This document shows, one piece after another, positions 9,390 to 18,248 of a stretch of 40,504 nt of DNA. Source of the stretch: Desulfobacteraceae bacterium. GTDB taxonomy: Bacteria; Desulfobacterota; Desulfobacteria; Desulfobacterales; ETH-SRB1. A program made the position numbers and the translations under genes. Where the stretch lies: NCBI GenBank assembly GCA_014237365.1, contig JABZFQ010000250.1, positions 1 through 40,504 of the forward strand, written 5' to 3'. Under the pieces are notes generated by a model. That model searched no databases and was not told the origin of the DNA. It saw only the letters and a list, made by a program, of their open reading frames with translations. Numbering within the stretch: the stretch's first letter is position 1; every line of letters begins with the position of its first letter.

Positions 9390-9498
9390 ATTTAAGTGCT
9401 TTTGTCAGGTTGTTGACAACTCTTTAAAAAAGCCTTGACAGAGGTTATTTTTTGGATTAATAGACATTTCTATCTAAATTAGAATAATAAAACTTTAA

Positions 9499-9583
9499 GG
9501 GACATCTTACGGTTGCCGCATAGACGGCAAAAGTGAAGGCGTAACTTGGATTGCGATAAGCAATCGGGTTGCGCCTTTTTTGT
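9499..9583 (+). ncRNA. Structured RNA motif ending in an intrinsic terminator (copy 1)
   Basis: Downstream of the porin gene lies TCTTACGGTT, a small hairpin (TTGCCG catag-type loop CGGCAA), the word AAGTGAAGGCGT, and a strong two-part terminator hairpin. The terminator pairs GGCGTAAC at 9538-9545 with GTTGCGCC at 9568-9575, and GATTGC with GCAATC, followed by a run of T. The same order of elements occurs on the other strand at 15907-15999. CGGTTGC at 9510-9516 can also pair with GCAATCG at 9560-9566, competing with the terminator stem. I do not recognise a known riboswitch class. It could simply terminate the porin transcript. Confidence 0.55.
9538..9581 (+). terminator. Rho-independent terminator
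   Basis: GGCGTAAC pairs with GTTGCGCC, and GATTGC with GCAATC inside it. The final stem is followed directly by a six-T run. It would end transcription of the LbtU-like porin and forms the last part of the RNA motif. Confidence 0.8.
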
Positions 9584-9599
9584 TTTAGTCCCTCCGCTG

Positions 9600-9877: not shown

Positions 9878-9925
9878 GAATGTCTTACGGTTTGAGGGAA
9901 GTGTGGAAGTAATTGTCAGTGCGAT
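9878..9925 (+). ncRNA. Diverged or partial copy of the RNA motif
   Basis: The 16-mer GAATGTCTTACGGTTT at 9878-9893 is identical to the start of the minus-strand copy at 15999-15907. An AAGTG word follows, but the first hairpin and the terminator are lost or changed. It lies 76 bases before the start of the next gene and may be its leader. Confidence 0.35.
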
Positions 9926-9968
9926 GGTAGTTGCAGGAACAAGAATTATTGGCAGTAAAGGAGGCAAC

Positions 9969-10400
9969 ATGGCAAAGGTGGGAAAGAGGGTCAGAAGCGA
10001 TTGGGCCATAGGAGCCCACACAGTAAATTCCTATAAGGCCAGAGTCGGCGATCCGGCTGTAAAAAGAAAAAGGAGGAGTTCAAAAGAAATATGTGGCGTT
10101 CTTGCTAGGGCTCTAAACAAGGTAAAAGGTCATGGCAGGGATGTAGATGTCAGATCGAAAAGGTTCAACGGCAAAGCAAAAATTAAACAATTATACAAAA
10201 TCAATCTTTTTAAGTCGGATTATTATATACTATGTTCCAATCAGGTAGTGATTACGCTATTTACTTCCGAAATGATTGAAAAGGATGCCAAAAGAGGCGG
10301 GTTGATATTTTTAGGCACTGAACCCTTTGAAGAAGTGAAAAACTATTATCCTCAACTTGATTCCAGATGCCCTATGCTTGCAAGTGGCCGAATGTATTAG
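9969..10400 (+). CDS. Unknown small basic protein
   Basis: I do not recognise this 143-aa protein. The ATG at 9969 has a very strong ribosome binding site (aaaggaggcaac), so it is preferred to an upstream frame start at 9903. The first 65 residues are rich in Lys and Arg (AVKRKRRSSKE, GHGRDVDVRSKRF). The second half looks like a small folded domain with beta strands (YKINLFKSDYYILCSN, VVITLFTSEMI). The basic N-terminus would fit nucleic-acid binding, but this is only suggestive. It is followed 30 bases later by a STAS-like gene and preceded by a partial copy of the RNA motif that also leads the opposite-strand operon. Confidence 0.6.
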   Translation: MAKVGKRVRSDWAIGAHTVNSYKARVGDPAVKRKRRSSKEICGVLARALNKVKGHGRDVDVRSKRFNGKAKIKQLYKINLFKSDYYILCSNQVVITLFTSEMIEKDAKRGGLIFLGTEPFEEVKNYYPQLDSRCPMLASGRMY

Positions 10401-10430: not shown

Positions 10431-10721
10431 ATGGCATCTAATTTTAGAATCTATGTTCAAAGAAATAGCGACGATCTTCACATAAAATTAGAGGGTGATT
10501 TCGACGGGACCTCTGCATGCCAACTGCTTGACGTTATGAAAGAAAATCAGCGTGGTGTATCAAAGATTTTTATAGATACCAGTTTACTTGACTATATATA
10601 TCCTTTCGGGCGGGATGTTTTTCACAATAATCTTAAGGCTGTTGACGTACAACAGACTTCTCTTCTATTTACTGGAAACAGCACATTACAACCGGCTCAG
10701 GAAGGGAACAGATTATGTTGA
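10431..10721 (+). CDS. STAS-like domain protein
   Basis: A 96-aa protein with a clear ribosome binding site (aaaggagtgttacatc). Its pattern of alternating strands and helices resembles anti-sigma-factor-antagonist STAS domains: DDLHIKLEGDFDGTSACQLLDVMKE, then SKIFIDTSLLDYIYPFGRDVF, then TSLLFTGN. The Thr/Ser of IDTS lies where STAS proteins usually carry a phosphorylatable Ser or Thr (normally after Asp), so regulation by phosphorylation is possible but not shown. It lies 30 bases after the unknown basic protein and converges on the MoxR gene, with 30 bases between the two stops. Confidence 0.6.
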   Translation: MASNFRIYVQRNSDDLHIKLEGDFDGTSACQLLDVMKENQRGVSKIFIDTSLLDYIYPFGRDVFHNNLKAVDVQQTSLLFTGNSTLQPAQEGNRLC

Positions 10722-10751: not shown

Positions 10752-11897
10752 TCACACGATATCAAAAAGTTCCTGGATAATCTGTTTGTCTGTGGTCAGC
10801 CTCTGGATTATGGTTGTTTTGCCTGTTTCGGCCTTTTCGCCAAGGAGGAGGAGTTTGAGTCCCAATGGTACGATTTCTTTGTGGTAGCGGATCATCTCGG
10901 TTAGAATGCCGGCAAAATTGTCGATACTGCGATTCATGAATTCTGTCAACTTGAACCTGTTTTGTCTGAGGTTTTTAAGTAAGTAGGTAACGCAGGAACT
11001 CAGCATGGCATAAGATTGAATTTTGGATAAGCTTTTGAATTGAATCGAAGTATGGTTGCTGAGGATTTCTGCGGCATTCCATTTGGCGTACAGCTCATAA
11101 TATTCTATAAATCTGGTGGTTGCCTCTGTGCCGACATGACCTGTCAAAATGGTAAACATGATCTGATTGCTCAGGGATTCTCCAAAGGAATCAATGGTCA
11201 TAGAGGCATAGCTCCACGATCTTGGAGATGGCCATGACCCGGATTCTATCGGTTTTCCTGTAAGAAATTCCGGATAGTTCTGGAGGAAGGTGATGATATC
11301 GCTTCGGATTCCATTTTTTAATGCGTAATCTTGCATCCACTGGTCAACGTCTGCATGGAGCTCGACAAAAAACATCCGATTGGCAACAGGCGCAAGAATT
11401 TCCTGGAAACCGGCTTTATCATTACCCCTGTTGCCTGCTAAAATAATGGCAACATTTTTTGGCAGCCTGTGGTCGTGGATAGATCTATAGGTTAAAAGCT
11501 GAAACATATAGGCCTGAATCTGGCGGTTGCACAGATGGGCATCATCCAGAAACATAATAATCGCATCTTGATCGGATTTTGGGAAAACCTCTAGATGATT
11601 GAAGTTAAAGATTTCCGGCCTCGACCACACGATAAACTCAGTCTTTGTATCCTCTTCCTTTCCAATCTTTGGCAGTCCTGTAATTTGTTCCAGCATGATC
11701 GTGGCCATATAAACCACCTTCAGGCCCCAGCCCCTGTCTTTGCAAATCTGACGAATCACTTCGGATTTCCCAATGCCCGGTGCGCCTGACAGCCAGGGTA
11801 TAGAAGACAAATGCCCATTATGGTTTGCATCGCACTGAAGCATAATGCTTCGGTCCACAAAGCTTGTTGCCTGATTCAAGTTCAGGGTCGTTTCCAT
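10752..11897 (-). CDS. MoxR-like AAA+ ATPase
   Basis: A 381-aa AAA+ ATPase. Walker A GAPGIGKS is at residues 38-45, the Walker B segment IIMFLDDAH at 113-121, and a sensor-type LAGNRGND near 155-160. MoxR-type ATPases act with VWA-domain proteins as chaperones or assembly factors. Here the gene directly downstream of a VWA/metallopeptidase-like gene on the same strand supports that pairing. The C-terminal region (about 250-381) is helical and ends with a second GKTTI-like loop (EKAETGKTTIIQRL), which may be coincidence. An aaggagat ribosome binding site precedes the start. It is the last gene of the minus-strand cluster. Confidence 0.8.
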   Translation of the reverse strand: METTLNLNQATSFVDRSIMLQCDANHNGHLSSIPWLSGAPGIGKSEVIRQICKDRGWGLKVVYMATIMLEQITGLPKIGKEEDTKTEFIVWSRPEIFNFNHLEVFPKSDQDAIIMFLDDAHLCNRQIQAYMFQLLTYRSIHDHRLPKNVAIILAGNRGNDKAGFQEILAPVANRMFFVELHADVDQWMQDYALKNGIRSDIITFLQNYPEFLTGKPIESGSWPSPRSWSYASMTIDSFGESLSNQIMFTILTGHVGTEATTRFIEYYELYAKWNAAEILSNHTSIQFKSLSKIQSYAMLSSCVTYLLKNLRQNRFKLTEFMNRSIDNFAGILTEMIRYHKEIVPLGLKLLLLGEKAETGKTTIIQRLTTDKQIIQELFDIV

Positions 11898-11967
11898 ATG
11901 ATCTCCTTGTTAATATTATTAGTCATTAGTTCAATCCACCAATCATCCAGCAACCAGTAACCAGTAA

Positions 11968-13398
11968 CTAACGGAAGTTAATTACCTTTCCTATTATTCC
12001 TTCCGGCAATGATCCGGCATTTGTAAGATATATTTTTGGTATAAAACCGGGGAGTAAATCTTGAGATTTCGGGATGTCAGACTCCATATCGGTAATACCT
12101 ATATAGGCTGAGACTAAATCCCCTTCATTAGACCTGACGTACCGCATAATTTCTTTAAAAACATTTCTATGAGAAGTACCCCCTGAGTGTCTTCTCTCGA
12201 GCAATGTCTTTTTTTCACAGGGTCCTATGTTTTCGTATTCTTTAGTCCAGGTAACATTTACATCATGTTTGATCACATAGATTTTTTTGTATTTGTTTTT
12301 AGCCTGACAGATAATATCTATAGCGCTGGCGACTGTCCTGTCAGACATCGATGCCGATTCATCAATACTCATAATAATGGTTCCCAGCCTCGGTTCTTCT
12401 GTGTAGCTTGGCAGGTAGGGAAGTCTGTCTGCGTTAACCAGCCAGGATAGCCTTGGTTTGCTCCATGTCAGTTCGGCAGATCTGTCTAAAGCCCTGTTCA
12501 GGGAGTCTCTCAATATCCTTTTCCAGTCAACTTTTACACCAGACAACAAACTTAAGAATTTTCTTGATTCCATTGAAGTCTGGTCACGAAGCGCTTCTTC
12601 AAACATTCGTTTAAACAGGAATATTTCATTTTTTTGCTGTTTCGTTGATTCAAAGAAAAGATCCTTATCTTTTGGCCTTACAGGTGAATTGCCTTCAACG
12701 TCCTCTTTGATCCCTTCTTGTTCATCATCGTTTTTTTCGTCAAAAAACTCTTTGTCATCAGATGATTGACTGCCCATTGTAGGCATGCCTTTAATATCAG
12801 TTCGTCTGATTGTTTCTTTGCGAAGCATAACTTCAGATCGAACAACGCGTGGCATTCCATTCAGATGTTGTTTAGACAAGGCATTGTTTTTGTCTTCGGA
12901 GAACATATCCTGCGTGACCCTGGAAATAATGTCGGAGGTTTTAGCAAGTTCGTCATATATTTCCTCTTCCAGCATGCTGGAGTATTTGGAATCAAACAGG
13001 AAACGGTCCTCACCTGAAAACATCTTGTGAGGATCATATTTGATCAGGTTTTCGTCAAACAGTCTGCTGAGGTAGAGGAGAAGACCGTTAACCATATAAT
13101 CGGTGGCCATATCCCACAGTGTATGATCCCGTTGTTTGCGCCTTGCATCATGAAAAAACATTATGTGGCAAATTTCGTGTAATAAAAGGAAGGTTACAGC
13201 CTCTTCATTGTTTCTGGCCTTCAGAAACCTGCTCTTTTTATTAAGGTAGATGGTATCTGTCCCTCTGAAAACGGTAATGTCTTCATCCAGATTCAGAAAA
13301 TGTATGTCATAATTCAAAAGAGCGAGCCCCATTGGCAAGCAATTGGGATCTCTAAGCATTCTGGAAATAATTCTTTTTATGATTCCATTTGCATCCAT
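11968..13398 (-). CDS. Metallopeptidase-like and VWA-domain protein (DUF2201 type)
   Basis: A 476-aa protein with two parts. The N-terminal part has a zinc-protease signature HEICH at residues 74-78, plus His83, in a helical context typical of the metallopeptidase-like DUF2201 domain. The middle (about 190-260) is acidic and low in complexity, probably a flexible linker. The C-terminal part (from about residue 340) is VWA-like with MIDAS motif DESAS at 346-350, a later GGTS threonine, and an Asp in GITDMESD, so metal-dependent ligand binding looks intact. The pair with the next gene, a MoxR ATPase, is a known combination. Whether the HEICH site is catalytic is not known. Confidence 0.8.
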   Translation of the reverse strand: MDANGIIKRIISRMLRDPNCLPMGLALLNYDIHFLNLDEDITVFRGTDTIYLNKKSRFLKARNNEEAVTFLLLHEICHIMFFHDARRKQRDHTLWDMATDYMVNGLLLYLSRLFDENLIKYDPHKMFSGEDRFLFDSKYSSMLEEEIYDELAKTSDIISRVTQDMFSEDKNNALSKQHLNGMPRVVRSEVMLRKETIRRTDIKGMPTMGSQSSDDKEFFDEKNDDEQEGIKEDVEGNSPVRPKDKDLFFESTKQQKNEIFLFKRMFEEALRDQTSMESRKFLSLLSGVKVDWKRILRDSLNRALDRSAELTWSKPRLSWLVNADRLPYLPSYTEEPRLGTIIMSIDESASMSDRTVASAIDIICQAKNKYKKIYVIKHDVNVTWTKEYENIGPCEKKTLLERRHSGGTSHRNVFKEIMRYVRSNEGDLVSAYIGITDMESDIPKSQDLLPGFIPKIYLTNAGSLPEGIIGKVINFR

Positions 13399-13474
13399 TT
13401 TTCGTTTCTCGTTACTGGTTTCTCGTTGCTGTCTAATCTTCTAATCTTCAGCCTTCAGCCTTTGACAGGAGCGT

Positions 13475-14098
13475 TCACTTTGCCAGTTTATATAAGAGAT
13501 AATCCTGTGCCCAAATATCTTTGAAATCTCCACAGTGCATCTTGAGCAGCTCGCATAATCTGTCGGTCAGTTGAAAATAGTCTGTGCAATACCAAATCGG
13601 AAAATAAGCAACGCAGTATCGGATCAGTATCTCCTCAACACTTATATTGCCAAAGAGGAATTTTGTGCCCCAGGGGAGTTTTTCATCATCCCACCAGGTT
13701 TCAAATTTGTCATTGAAATCTTTAATAAGGTATATAATATTTGTTTCCCAGGGAAAGGATTTCGGATCCCACCAGGAGTCGAAATGCTCTTTGCAATAAT
13801 TCATCAAAAATCTTGTTGACCGCGGTTTCCAGTCGAATCTTTCAGGATCCCACCAGATGTGGAAATATTGACGGCAGTAACGAATCAGGTCGCTGCTCGA
13901 CTGCCAGTTATACCTGTCAGAATCCCACCACTGCTCAAAGTGGTGACTACAATATCTTGGCAAGTACTTGCTGTACGTCCAATCAAATTTTTCCGGATTC
14001 CACCACTGGCGAAAGTCAGAGTCAGTGTGAACATCAAAACCCTTCAAAAAGCGATAATCGAACCGGTTTTCACTATATCTATGCATTTCCATAGTCAT
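13475..14098 (-). CDS. Trp-rich WWDP tandem-repeat protein, unknown
   Basis: A 207-aa protein built of tandem repeats of about 25-27 residues. The core is F-x-x-W-W-[DN]-x-[ED]-[KR]-[FY]-x-W. Clear copies are at 29-40, 54-65, 79-90, 106-117 and 132-143, with degenerate copies near 166-177 and 192-203. Each core is preceded by a helix-like stretch often ending in YC (for example IRYCRQYF). I do not recognise the family. The start at 14098 overlaps the stop of the 33-aa membrane peptide (ATGA), so it is probably translated by coupling. A longer frame from 14161 would read through that peptide in another phase and is less likely. Repeats of this kind usually bind a partner; none can be named. 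Confidence 0.65.
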   Translation of the reverse strand: MTMEMHRYSENRFDYRFLKGFDVHTDSDFRQWWNPEKFDWTYSKYLPRYCSHHFEQWWDSDRYNWQSSSDLIRYCRQYFHIWWDPERFDWKPRSTRFLMNYCKEHFDSWWDPKSFPWETNIIYLIKDFNDKFETWWDDEKLPWGTKFLFGNISVEEILIRYCVAYFPIWYCTDYFQLTDRLCELLKMHCGDFKDIWAQDYLLYKLAK

Positions 14099-14196
14099 TC
14101 TAATAATGCCCAAATAACCATAAACAGCATTCCTGCCACGCTGCCAACATATACGATCCATCCGATTCTGTCTAGTTTATTGATTGTTTCCATCAT
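14095..14196 (-). CDS. 33-aa single-span membrane peptide
   Basis: A short frame of 33 codons encodes MMETINKLDRIGW followed by one hydrophobic segment of about 19 residues (IVYVGSVAGMLFMVIWALL) and a final Glu. The start has an excellent ribosome binding site (aaaggagaccgtgc). The TGA overlaps the ATG of the WWDP-repeat gene. Start signal, composition and coupling support a real gene. Function is unknown; it may anchor the operon products at the membrane. Confidence 0.6.
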   Translation of the reverse strand: MMETINKLDRIGWIVYVGSVAGMLFMVIWALLE

Positions 14197-14243
14197 GCAC
14201 GGTCTCCTTTCACGCCAAGTAGTTTCCAGGGCAACTGTAGTAT

Positions 14244-14438
14244 CTATTTGGGTTCAATATCCTGTTTTGAAAAGCATCGGCGATCAATTTCAGCTTTTAT
14301 CTTGGCGCTCAAGCTGTTTCTTTGATTCAGGTGTGAACCGAAATTAATGTATCCTGGCTGGATACCTGAACTGTTACCGGAGCAAGTTGCAGAAAGGATA
14401 GCCCTCTCGAAAAGCTGTTTTGACTCTTTGGTTGTCAT
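14244..14438 (-). CDS. Unknown 64-aa protein
   Basis: This small gene starts at an ATG that overlaps the stop of the HTH gene (ATGA) and has an aaaggagatat ribosome binding site. The protein is hydrophilic, with a Ser/Gly/Asn-rich middle (ATCSGNSSGIQPGYINFGS) and a charged C-terminal helix (SAKIKAEIDRR). No family is recognised. Its position and start signal, not its sequence, support it. Confidence 0.55.
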   Translation of the reverse strand: MTTKESKQLFERAILSATCSGNSSGIQPGYINFGSHLNQRNSLSAKIKAEIDRRCFSKQDIEPK

Positions 14439-15232
14439 GATATCTCCTTTGTCTGGTTTTTAGGGGTCAGCAGATGCCAGGCCTCCTTGAATAAGGAGTA
14501 CTTGCTTTTACCAGGCCATGCATCGGGTAAAAGGTAAATTCTGTATTTTGGCATGGCAAGCCGCGGAATAATGTAATGGATACTTTCTCCATTGTTTCTG
14601 CAAACGCAAATGATAAAGTCAAAATTTTGACTTGCTTCAGTTGTATTGGTGATGCGGAAATATCGCTTTTTTCCGATCATGAGAGGCGTTGAGGTACACT
14701 TGAGAAGAAGCTTGTAACCGTTCGTCAAAATTTCATACGGATGTTCCCGAGTTCTGAGATGTGGAGTTAAGCCCATGGACTCCATTTTTGTTTTGACCTT
14801 TATCAATAGATCAAGACGTTTGGATTTTTTCCTGTTAGCAAGCCTTTTGCGCCTTCTTAGTTTTATCTTGCTTTGGAAGGCTTCAGTATAGGGGTATCCA
14901 TAGACCTTTTTATATACCTGCCGGGCGTATTCTCTGGAAAACCCGAAATGTCTGGCTACGCCAGCCAGACTATTGTCTGGATTCTCTATGATGTTTTTAA
15001 ATTTCTTCACAGCGCCGGCACCGTAAGTCCGTTCAAACTGTCTTAGAAATCCGGCAGTCTTCTTTATTTCAAAGGTTTTTTTCAACTTTCCGATAAATGA
15101 CCCATTTACATTTAAAATGCCGGCTAGCTCGTAATTGTAAAGGTTTTCCATCTCTACTTTCTGTTTGATAAATTTATATAGTTCCATATTAAATTGCTCT
15201 TTTACATAAGCTTCCAGTTGTATCGTCGTCAT
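14435..15232 (-). CDS. HTH protein with a possible nuclease-like C-terminal domain
   Basis: A 265-aa protein. Residues about 70-120 contain a sigma-region-4-like helix-turn-helix (SLAGVARHFGFSREYARQVYKKVYG). A strongly basic linker follows (KIKLRRRKRLANRKKSKR). The C-terminal domain has a beta-rich pattern with EILTNGYKLLLKC, KKRYFRI and NFDFIICVCRNNGESIHYIIPR. This looks like the core of PD-(D/E)xK-type nuclease-like folds, but I cannot align an intact D...ExK triad, so this is only a suggestion. I prefer the ATG at 15232, which has gagg seven bases upstream, over a GTG at 15244. It may regulate the operon or bind foreign DNA. Confidence 0.6.
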   Translation of the reverse strand: MTTIQLEAYVKEQFNMELYKFIKQKVEMENLYNYELAGILNVNGSFIGKLKKTFEIKKTAGFLRQFERTYGAGAVKKFKNIIENPDNSLAGVARHFGFSREYARQVYKKVYGYPYTEAFQSKIKLRRRKRLANRKKSKRLDLLIKVKTKMESMGLTPHLRTREHPYEILTNGYKLLLKCTSTPLMIGKKRYFRITNTTEASQNFDFIICVCRNNGESIHYIIPRLAMPKYRIYLLPDAWPGKSKYSLFKEAWHLLTPKNQTKEIS

Positions 15233-15310
15233 CTTAAACCTCACATTTTTCAGTTTATATAAATTTTCTGGTGCGTATCTCCGCGGTTCACTCCGCGTTC
15301 CTAAACATTA

Positions 15311-15712
15311 TCAATTCGTTTTTGTATTTTTTGATAATGCCTGTGAAATAGAGCTCAAACTGGAGCTGGGAAGCATATGGACGCGCTTGCAATATTTTTT
15401 GCATAGCTTTTTGACGTTTAAACAGGCATTGTGGCTATTGCAGTTGACCGGGCACAAAACCATGTCCGAGCGCCTGACCAGTACCTCCAGGCCATGTTTT
15501 CCCCAACCATCATGATATTCAAAGACAGCGCCTTTTTTTTCGATTGCCCGGCGGTAAAATGCTTTGATTTTGGTTATTCCACCTACAATAAGAATACGTT
15601 TTCCGCAAAAATCGAATAATGGACAAGCCTCTGCTCCCAATGTTCGTTTTTGCACCGGTCCTAGTTTACGATTACGCCTGTTGTTGCGGGCTTGAACGTT
15701 AGTAACCTGCAT
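15311..15712 (-). CDS. DUF2325-family protein, first gene of the operon
   Basis: This 133-aa protein has the DUF2325 core: a Rossmann-like first strand KRILIVGGITKIKAFYRRAIE, then FEYHDGW, then SDMVLCPVNCNSHNACLNVKKLCKK, and a final YCKRVHMLPSSSLSSI. DUF2325 proteins are small and of unknown function, often encoded beside regulators or defence-type genes. Cysteines in ACPLFDFCGK and CPVNCNSHNAC could bind metal. A strong ribosome binding site (aaaaggaggaatatca) precedes the ATG at 15712. Further upstream are a 159-bp inverted repeat and a structured leader with terminator, suggesting regulation by attenuation. Confidence 0.75.
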   Translation of the reverse strand: MQVTNVQARNNRRNRKLGPVQKRTLGAEACPLFDFCGKRILIVGGITKIKAFYRRAIEKKGAVFEYHDGWGKHGLEVLVRRSDMVLCPVNCNSHNACLNVKKLCKKYCKRVHMLPSSSLSSISQALSKNTKTN

Positions 15713-15741
15713 TGATATTCCTCCTTTTCAATATCTTTGAA

Positions 15742-15900
15742 CCTAAATTGAGCGATTTTTTACTCGACCTGCATCAATCTTTTGCGCATCAAGGACTTGC
15801 GAAAAGTCTCGACATATCCATTGGTATACCTGCACTTTTCGCAAACCTTGCTGTATCAAAGTCTCGGCACATTTCTTCGCAAAAAATCGCCCAACTTAGG
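15742..15900. repeat. 159-bp palindromic element between the leader and the DUF2325 gene
   Basis: CCTAAATTGAGCGATTTTTT at 15742-15761 matches the complement of 15881-15900 with two differences. Further arms are found inside (AAGGACTTGCGAAAAGT against ACTTTTCGCAAACCTT). The whole would form one long hairpin in RNA. It is either a MITE-like insertion or part of the operon leader. Confidence 0.75.
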
Positions 15901-15906
15901 TTGAAA

Positions 15907-15999
15907 TAAAAAAAGGCATGATAGAAACCGGTTTTCTGCTGTTTCCAATCACGCCTTCACTTTTTTCGCCTCTGCGAAAACCGTAAGACATTCTTTTAC
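15907..15999 (-). ncRNA. Structured leader RNA motif with terminator (copy 2) upstream of the DUF2325-MoxR operon
   Basis: Read on the minus strand it shows GAATGTCTTACGGTTT, a hairpin TTTTCGC-agag-GCGAAAA, the word AAGTGAAGGCGT, and a terminator. The terminator pairs GGCGTGAT (15955-15948) with ATCATGCC (15922-15915), enclosing GGAAAC/GTTTC, and is followed by seven T. CGGTTTTC at 15983-15976 can pair with GAAAACCG at 15936-15929 in the terminator loop. The same alternative pairing exists in copy 1 with different bases, which hints at conserved structure. It lies about 195 bases before the first gene. A short hairpin (GACCTC...GAGGTC, 16019-16049) lies just upstream. Confidence 0.6.
15908..15955 (-). 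terminator. Rho-independent terminator in the operon leader
   Basis: A stem of about 13 bp (GGCGTGAT/ATCATGCC and GGAAAC/GTTTC) is followed by a T run at 15914-15908. Because it lies upstream of the DUF2325 operon, it may act as an attenuator. Confidence 0.75.
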
Positions 16000-16056
16000 T
16001 TTTTTCCTGAATAAAGATGACCTCCGGATAATCTTTTATCATAGAGGTCAATCATT

Positions 16057-16238
16057 AGGAACGGGGACGAAATAACTTCCTCAACTATGCATCACAGCTT
16101 CAAGCCATCTTTGCACGATCTCAAATCACAAAAATATCGAAATAGCCTGCTATTCCATCAACTTTTGAGATTTGAGATCGAACAAATTTGACCCAAATCT
16201 ATGCGCCTACCTGGGGAAGTTATTTCGTCCCCGTTCCT
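16057..16238. mobile_element. MITE family 1, complete copy
   Basis: The element has 24-bp perfect inverted ends beginning AGGAACGGGGACGAAATAAC, flanked by TTA on the left and TA on the right. It is 182 bp long, exactly the length of the copy at 17411-17592, which lies in the opposite orientation. The interior is also nearly palindromic (GATCTCAAATCACAAAA against TTTTGAGATTTGAGATC). It has no coding capacity. Confidence 0.85.
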
Positions 16239-16319
16239 TATTATTTCATGGTTTCATATAAGGGTTTGGTAAAAAATTAGATTAAACAAAATAAGTTAGA
16301 TATGTCTAATTTAACATAG

Positions 16320-16344
16320 AAAAAAACCTTGTCAAGGTTTTTTT
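16320..16344. terminator. Symmetric hairpin, possible bidirectional terminator
   Basis: AAAAAACC-TTGTCAA-GGTTTTTT forms a stem with A and T runs on its two sides, so it could end transcription in either direction. It lies between two MITE copies in a region without genes. Confidence 0.5.
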
Positions 16345-16411
16345 GATGATTTTGTAAAAAACTTTTAATTTCTGTCAGGGTTTAATTCCCAGCAGCTTGT
16401 TGCGATTCCTT

Positions 16412-16508
16412 AGGAACGGGGACGAAATAACTTCCCCAAGCAGGCGCATAGATTTGGATCAAATTTGTTCGATCTCAAATCTCAAAAGTTGATGGAATAG
16501 CAGGCTAT
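16412..16508. mobile_element. MITE family 1, half copy
   Basis: One intact end (AGGAACGGGGACGAAATAAC) and the neighbouring half of the element are present. Similarity stops near 16508, at a GCTAT word that is central in the complete copies. The lost half lies next to the truncated PIN gene, so a deletion may have removed both. Confidence 0.75.
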
Positions 16509-17862: not shown

Positions 17863-18248
17863 TGGTGGAGGCGGCGGGAGTCGAACCCGCGTCCGAAAAT
17901 ATTCCACACAGGCATCTACATACTTAGCCTGAACTTTAGTTTTCGCCTATTCAAGTCTCCTCCAGGCAGGATGCTTGAAAAGCTATCCTGTTTAAGTTTC
18001 GCTAAGGAACGGGGAAGTTATTTCGTCCTCGTTCTTAATCCTGAAACAGGAAATCAGGAAAAGCTATCCTGCTAATCGTCGCCCTTACCGGATGCGCAGG
18101 AATAACCCGGCAGAACGTTAGCCTAAGCGGCTAAAGCGTAATTATAATCATCTGCGATTATATTTATGTCCCAACCTTTTTTACGAGTAGGCAGGAGCTC
18201 GGTATGCAGCCAATGCTTCTTTATTTCCGTCGAAGCCATTTCGCCCCC
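17863..18248 (-). ncRNA. ssrA: tmRNA (ssrA) with a MITE remnant inside
   Basis: The 5' end GGGGGCGAAATGGCTTCGACGG and the 3' end GGTTCGACTCCCGCCGCCTCCACCA form the tRNA-like part; the acceptor arms GGGGGCG and CGCCTCC pair. The tag frame at 18155-18123 follows a TAATC and reads ADDYNYALAA then stop, a typical degradation tag. In the pseudoknot region, 18005-18036 is a shortened MITE family 1 element (both ends kept, middle deleted). Removing it, with one TTA, leaves a plausible uninterrupted GATTAGCGAAAC. smpB lies on the same strand 186 bases upstream of the RNA start. The length of about 386 nt is normal to slightly long. Confidence 0.95.
18005..18036. mobile_element. MITE family 1 remnant within tmRNA
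   Basis: Ten bases of one end (AGGAACGGGG) join directly to 22 bases of the other end (AAGTTATTTCG...CGTTCTT). Flanks are TTA on each side. The transcript can still form a short stem from the two ends. Confidence 0.75.

Follow-up and report, generated by a model that had tools for sequence, protein, structure and literature searches.

Positions 1 to 40,504 of contig JABZFQ010000250.1 (assembly GCA_014237365.1, a Desulfobacteraceae bacterium), referred to here as the window, contain seven minus-strand genes behind a structured leader RNA. In order of transcription they encode a DUF2325 protein, a helix-turn-helix (HTH) protein, a 64-amino-acid (aa) protein, a 33-aa peptide with a single transmembrane segment (TM), a WWDP repeat protein, a DUF2201 metallopeptidase-VWA protein and a MoxR-type AAA+ ATPase. 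The initial annotation read the seven genes as one system, possibly of the conflict type. Sequence comparisons confirm the operon and the leader, place the leader outside the known Rfam families and give no support to a single conflict-type system. Because the operator and the leader in front of these genes also precede iron-uptake genes of the same bacteria, the genes point to iron management with a candidate RNA switch, not to defence. Both elements stand before FeoAB, TonB-receptor, TonB-motor and DUF2325 genes in the same and in related bacteria. It is very probable that the operon belongs to an iron regulon, and its interpretation as a whole, as an iron-limitation operon, is the explanation that we favour and hold to be probable.

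Operator and leader RNA

A consensus scan predicts a promoter, TTGACA(16 nt)TAAATT, on the minus strand at 16296-16335, which is conserved in G003. It is overlapped by the palindrome TTAGACATATCTAA (16296-16309, minus strand), which has the pattern TTAGA-N4-TCTAA. The iron and cassette loci, 361 kb in all, contain ten exact copies of this pattern, where shuffles give 0.4, and 180 kb of control loci carrying the type A and type B MoxR-VWA genes described below contain none. Over whole genomes the pattern does not outnumber its reversed control, and the window genome has four copies in all; the evidence for the operator is its placement, not its copy number. Another Feo-type copy of the window genome has DtxR-FeoA on one side and orf97-P-type ATPase genes on the other, and in other loci the operator also precedes DUF2325, FeoA-orf97 and both of the gene cassettes defined below, the cassettes even at a distance from Feo genes. 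The sole exact copy of the G012 genome precedes orf97-DUF2325-HTH-64aa-TM, and G008 has one copy before orf97-DUF2325 and another before an HTH cassette (L140) 26 kb away. The operator stands no more than 160 nt upstream of 24 of the 54 leader copies, in most cases at -42 to -44; for random windows the figure is 4%. As in a DtxR-type regulon, genomes that encode a DtxR-type repressor have a common palindromic operator before their iron-uptake genes, and the gene for such a repressor (PF01325/PF02742) is in the iron islands.

The leader itself is an RNA of about 100 nt on the minus strand at 15904-16003. The covariance model, whose 28 training sequences include it, scores it at 82 bits (E about 1e-18). 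Its core consists of AUGUCUUACGG, a P2 hairpin, AAGUGAAGGCG and an intrinsic terminator, and the leader with its terminator is conserved in G003. In the 28-copy alignment, compensatory change is seen in 14 of the 22 predicted pairs, 94% of the cells pair, and five of five covariation measures lie above 500 shuffles and slid controls. The predicted antiterminator is an alternative helix, GUCUUAC:GUGAAGGC, that would prevent the terminator from forming; it appears in the predicted folds of 26 of 28 truncated transcripts, and the terminator in those of 27 of 28 full transcripts. No Rfam 15 family matches the leader beyond chance, either in a gathering-threshold scan of the window or in a relaxed scan of nine loci, and no published description was found in the literature searched, from which subscription journals were mostly out of reach. 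The model matches at least 32 of 192 genomes of the class and at least 20 of 345 of the phylum, both lower bounds because the best candidates alone were scored.

About 40 of the copies examined are in non-training genomes. They lie directly upstream of FeoA/FeoB in 12 cases (two of them via a small NifX-like gene), TonB receptors in six, DUF3450-TolQ operons in four and DUF2325 in two, and the remainder precede porin, DUF4198, STAS-like, CobW, pseudopilin, HU or unknown genes. An unexpected group in the regulon consists of apparent type II secretion genes for pseudopilins, which the leader precedes at L210, L219, L220 and L235. A tandem pair of leaders precedes a DUF2325 gene at about 1500-1640 of L248 (G271). 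The window has a second copy of its own on the plus strand (9490-9586; 92 bits, E=2e-21), upstream of a 165-aa open reading frame (ORF; 9903-10400) and a STAS-like gene. The WWDP cassette of G005 (L017) has its own operator, with one half-site base off, and its own leader, so in that genome the cassette itself, and not DUF2325 alone, appears to be in the regulon.

These comparisons make it nearly certain that the leader is a real regulatory RNA, and it is a candidate iron-responsive attenuator or riboswitch. The general features of a riboswitch are present: a conserved leader, covariation, and a terminator and antiterminator that are mutually exclusive. We put a ligand-binding riboswitch at close to an even chance. 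A leader that is instead the target of an RNA-binding protein, or that works through another attenuation mechanism, is plausible, though somewhat short of even; the short invariant core and small P2 hairpin would suit it, but invariant nucleotides surround the internal loop and tandem copies occur, and both are common in riboswitches.

The seven genes and their products

All seven genes were located on the minus strand where the initial annotation had called them, and the stop/start overlaps that it described are present as ATGA at the HTH/64-aa and TM/WWDP junctions. The DUF2325 protein (15311-15712, 133 aa; PF10087 in Pfam, E=2e-23) corresponds to the C-terminal part alone of a protein that is usually 385-444 aa long, the N-terminal 300 aa or so being gone. 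In its usual form the gene belongs to iron islands in many families, where it is repeatedly accompanied by DtxR, FeoA, orf97, STAS-like, flavodoxin, porin and FeoB genes. The HTH protein (14435-15232, about 265 aa) has two HTH motifs with weak similarity to HTH_AraC and sigma region 4, and its structure model is good in the N-terminal half and poor in the C-terminal half, an unassigned domain whose sequence may be nuclease-like. The 64-aa protein (14244-14438) is conserved among relatives, and in L123 and L142 it forms a single ORF with the HTH protein. The TM peptide (14095-14196), recognised from its translation, is kept in G003, G056, Meg22_46, G012, G008, G013, G590 and G670.

The WWDP repeat protein (13475-14098, 207 aa) has nine family members and no Pfam family, PDB match or BFVD match. 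AlphaFold2 models it as helical repeats, with a predicted local distance difference test score that averages 80 overall and is about 93 in the repeats. The next product (11968-13398) has an N-terminal PF13203 domain (DUF2201_N, E=6e-19) with its HExxH motif kept, as expected of a DUF2201 metallopeptidase-VWA protein, and ends in the VWA domain, whose metal-ion-dependent adhesion site (MIDAS) is intact. The MoxR-type ATPase (10752-11897) scores slightly below the Pfam cut-off for AAA_5, with intact Walker A/B, sensor and PRSW motifs. The hallmarks of a MoxR AAA+/VWA pair, namely Walker A/B, sensor 1, arginine finger and PRSW together with MIDAS, are found (all WWDP-type copies checked). Purifying selection acts on all seven genes, with ratios of nonsynonymous to synonymous change (dN/dS) of 0.16-0.38 relative to the closest copy, in G003, and the small genes are no exception (64-aa protein 0.38, TM peptide 0.23).

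A composite operon

Comparison across relatives indicates that the operon is composed of three separable units, DUF2325, an HTH-64aa-TM cassette and a WWDP-VWA-MoxR cassette. WWDP was found in eight of 114 relatives, one of them with a mere remnant, and VWA in seven of these. Two further WWDP loci came from a scan of 84,980 species. It found nothing beyond Desulfobacterota, its eight loci all being from metagenome-assembled genomes (MAGs) of Desulfobacterota or Deltaproteobacteria, and it works on sequence patterns, which distant members can escape. Without the remnant, nine loci have WWDP-VWA-MoxR in fixed order, of which that of G056 is divided over two contigs and that of G005 contains masked bases. 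All nine come from MAGs of Desulfobacterota, among them those of bacteria that partner methane and ethane oxidisers. In both the MoxR and the VWA tree the WWDP type forms its own clade with 100/100 support.

The complete seven-gene order recurs only within the same genus (G000 and G003). Elsewhere Meg22_46 has HTH-64aa-TM-WWDP-VWA-MoxR without DUF2325, G012 has DUF2325-HTH-64aa-TM without WWDP-VWA-MoxR, and G013 has DUF2325-WWDP-VWA-MoxR with its HTH cassette on a separate contig. HTH-64aa-TM is a second cassette that occurs with or without the WWDP cassette. The same position in the island is taken by WWDP-VWA-MoxR in G013, by HTH-64aa-TM in G012 and by a WWDP/MoxR remnant in G008. This remnant (L018, 8203-8526), a 107-aa ORF in which one WWDP repeat runs into the C-terminal end of MoxR, is what an internal deletion has left at the site where G013 has its intact cassette. 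Because cassettes replace one another at this position and occur apart, the seven-gene unit is composite. The proposal of a single transcription unit behind the leader is plausible, and the unity of WWDP, VWA and MoxR holds at all nine loci; that of the seven genes as one indivisible system does not.

Two observations concern G002. A truncated second copy (L013, 1-852; G002:C93) comprises the WWDP end, the last 38 MoxR residues and a STAS-like gene and adjoins a TonB-type receptor; it could be either a paralogue or the trace of strain variation within the MAG. Near the cassette (L012, 4688-8940), small 'WKGILIGG' membrane-type proteins lie by P-type ATPases, a suspected ferrosome-like arrangement.

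A probable role under iron limitation

In the explanation that we favour, a DtxR-type repressor would act on the operator, and the leader would sense an iron-related signal and end transcription in cells with enough iron. When iron is limiting, the operator would be freed and the leader read through, and DUF2325, the HTH cassette and WWDP-VWA-MoxR would be produced together. In analogy to NorQD (PMC13036017), the VWA protein may then be pulled by MoxR hexamers, with the WWDP helical repeat protein docking a client. The client would be an iron protein or membrane complex that is metallated or remodelled, as nitric oxide reductase is by NorQ-NorD, and the HTH-64aa-TM cassette would be a co-regulated accessory. 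On this analogy we put the odds that WWDP-VWA-MoxR is a NorQD-like ATP-driven metallation or assembly chaperone at not quite even.

An iron link, meaning Feo, DtxR or DUF2325 genes or the leader nearby, is found for five of nine WWDP cassettes and none of 12 paralogous type A cassettes (p=0.006, a comparison that ignores shared ancestry). Precedents exist in the literature: NorQD inserts iron (PMC13036017, PMC9976466), an operon of Desulfovibrio desulfuricans G20 with MoxR-like and CoxE-like genes was predicted to be Fur-regulated (PMC545781), and the DUF2325 gene cj1384c is PerR-regulated and adjoins katA (PMC9426514).

Several points weigh against this explanation. The antiterminator helix is almost invariant, so that covariation backs P2 and the terminator more than P1. 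Roughly one in three of the leaders examined stands before genes without an obvious iron role (pseudopilins, HU and unknowns). The delta-Fur box known from the literature is absent. The WWDP cassettes of Meg22_46, G079 and UBA3076 have no leader, operator or Feo genes in the available DNA.

The last of these points would suit a WWDP-VWA-MoxR cassette that merely hitch-hikes in iron operons while doing an unrelated job, since three of nine loci then lack any iron link, and related type A cassettes adjoin other genes, such as those for acyl-CoA dehydrogenase (by eye). We regard this as unlikely, as the G005 cassette has an operator and a leader of its own and some type B MoxR-VWA pairs also lie within or next to groups of Feo-type genes (L104, L107 and L161). 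Equally improbable is ATP-fed proteolysis, in which MoxR would unfold a client, for example an iron-rich protein under iron limitation, for cleavage by the DUF2201 zincin, with WWDP as the substrate adaptor. In its favour, all seven WWDP-type VWA proteins checked have kept both HExxH and the Asp downstream of it, whereas the Glu is lost in most type B proteins; the motif may, however, merely bind zinc, and we know of no established MoxR-VWA protease. A conflict or defence role, with the WWDP repeats recognising an invader and MoxR-VWA deploying an effector, is very improbable: the patchy distribution, the remnants (the L018 fusion and the truncated G002 copy), the location of the G008 HTH cassette a few kilobases from apparent Vsr, methyltransferase and GHKL-type ATPase genes (by eye) and the presence of MoxR-VWA pairs in known conflict systems (PMC7159879) would agree with it, but there is no PADLOC match above chance, no effector domain and no rapid evolution, dN/dS being 0.16-0.23, WWDP is not found in phage, plasmid or IMG/VR records, and the iron operator, the leader and the neighbouring genes point to iron uptake.

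The iron-limitation explanation has a bolder form, which we offer tentatively and rate below even. The leader would be a new class of riboswitch for iron or an iron-linked metabolite that runs the iron-uptake regulon throughout Desulfobacterota, and in syntrophic sulfate reducers it would switch on a new, WWDP-type MoxR-VWA machine. Riboswitches that respond to Fe2+ are rare. Here a compact terminator-coupled RNA stands before FeoAB, TonB receptors and what may be an iron-linked chaperone operon, in a group that includes partners of methane-oxidising archaea, and it offers a testable handle on the iron supply of uncultured sulfate reducers.

Comparison with known systems

The WWDP-type pair resembles NorQ/NorD in combining a MoxR ATPase with a VWA protein whose MIDAS is intact and in its iron link. 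It differs in having a DUF2201 metallopeptidase-VWA protein as partner of MoxR and WWDP as an additional component, and no nitric oxide reductase genes were noticed near the WWDP cassette. The D. desulfuricans G20 operon (PMC545781, Table 3), from a related sulfate reducer, likewise combines MoxR with a VWA-type protein and is predicted to lie in an iron regulon, a likeness in gene description. There the site is a Fur box, here it is TTAGA-N4-TCTAA, and WWDP is not reported there.

With the VMAP/iSTAND MoxR-vWA ternary conflict systems (PMC7159879) the cassette shares three genes, a MoxR-VWA pair plus a third protein. Its gene order differs and its evolution is slow, and searches of Pfam, NCBIfam and PADLOC gave no VMAP-C or iSTAND domain and no VWA effector domain. 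The phage MoxR/VWA pair (PHROG 1297 and 1314) has clear profile similarity to both proteins, and MoxR relatives are present in 756 phage records; identity is at most 30% among the matches listed, and phage records contain no WWDP. For the leader, the nearest parallel is the NiCo (czcD) riboswitch, also an RNA switch linked to transition metals, which is reported, in work cited in PMC11477304, to respond to Fe2+. The leader described here differs in preceding uptake genes and in matching no Rfam family.

DUF2201-MoxR pairs of the phylum are often accompanied by a third gene. Its product takes the position that WWDP has in the cassette of the window; in type A it is a 'YIYxAGxxWKxFD' helical-type repeat protein, and the type B product is about 155-180 aa long. 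The type A protein (L116 144-866, L118 3208-3990, L121 6266-7036 and others) has W-rich repeats of about 30 aa and no Pfam family. Homology between it and WWDP was considered and rejected, since profile comparison shows no relation; the likeness is one of position only. Several type A cassettes adjoin apparent acyl-CoA dehydrogenase and enoyl-CoA hydratase genes, identified by eye. Lineage-specific third proteins are shown to travel with DUF2201 MoxR-VWA pairs, and these pairs, for which no assigned function was found, gain a first regulatory context.

Dispersed repeats and neighbouring genes

The structured leader with a terminator proposed in the initial annotation is present, but the strongest hairpin (15735-15905, minus strand, -69.5 kcal/mol) is not part of it. 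This 171-bp palindromic repeat, which resembles a miniature inverted-repeat transposable element and lies outside the system, has at least 44 copies in G000, 59 matches in G002 and only a stub in G003, and its dispersal in more than 40 copies in the window genome rules it out as a regulatory RNA. Its ends are AACCTAA...TTTAGGTT; it is spread through the family, with one copy close to the FeoA-FeoB genes of G012. Another insertion that bears repeats (about 16058-16276) parts the promoter from the leader in the window genome and is not found in G003. It carries inverted repeats with GGAACGGGGACGAAATAACTTCC ends, similar to repetitive extragenic palindromic elements (16050-16245 and 16142-16508).

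Convergent with MoxR in G000, G002 and G003 is a gene for a small STAS-like protein (10431-10721, plus strand; by eye) that has no Pfam match and has relatives in other Feo islands. The 165-aa ORF at 9903-10400 encodes a MAKVGKRV... protein of about 141-165 aa from iron islands, where it overlaps or adjoins the cassette (also L015 3838-4263, L018 7779-8216 and L123 3427-3858); it has no Pfam match above cut-off. A transfer-messenger RNA gene with the tag ADDYNYALAA is located at 17863-18248 of the window.

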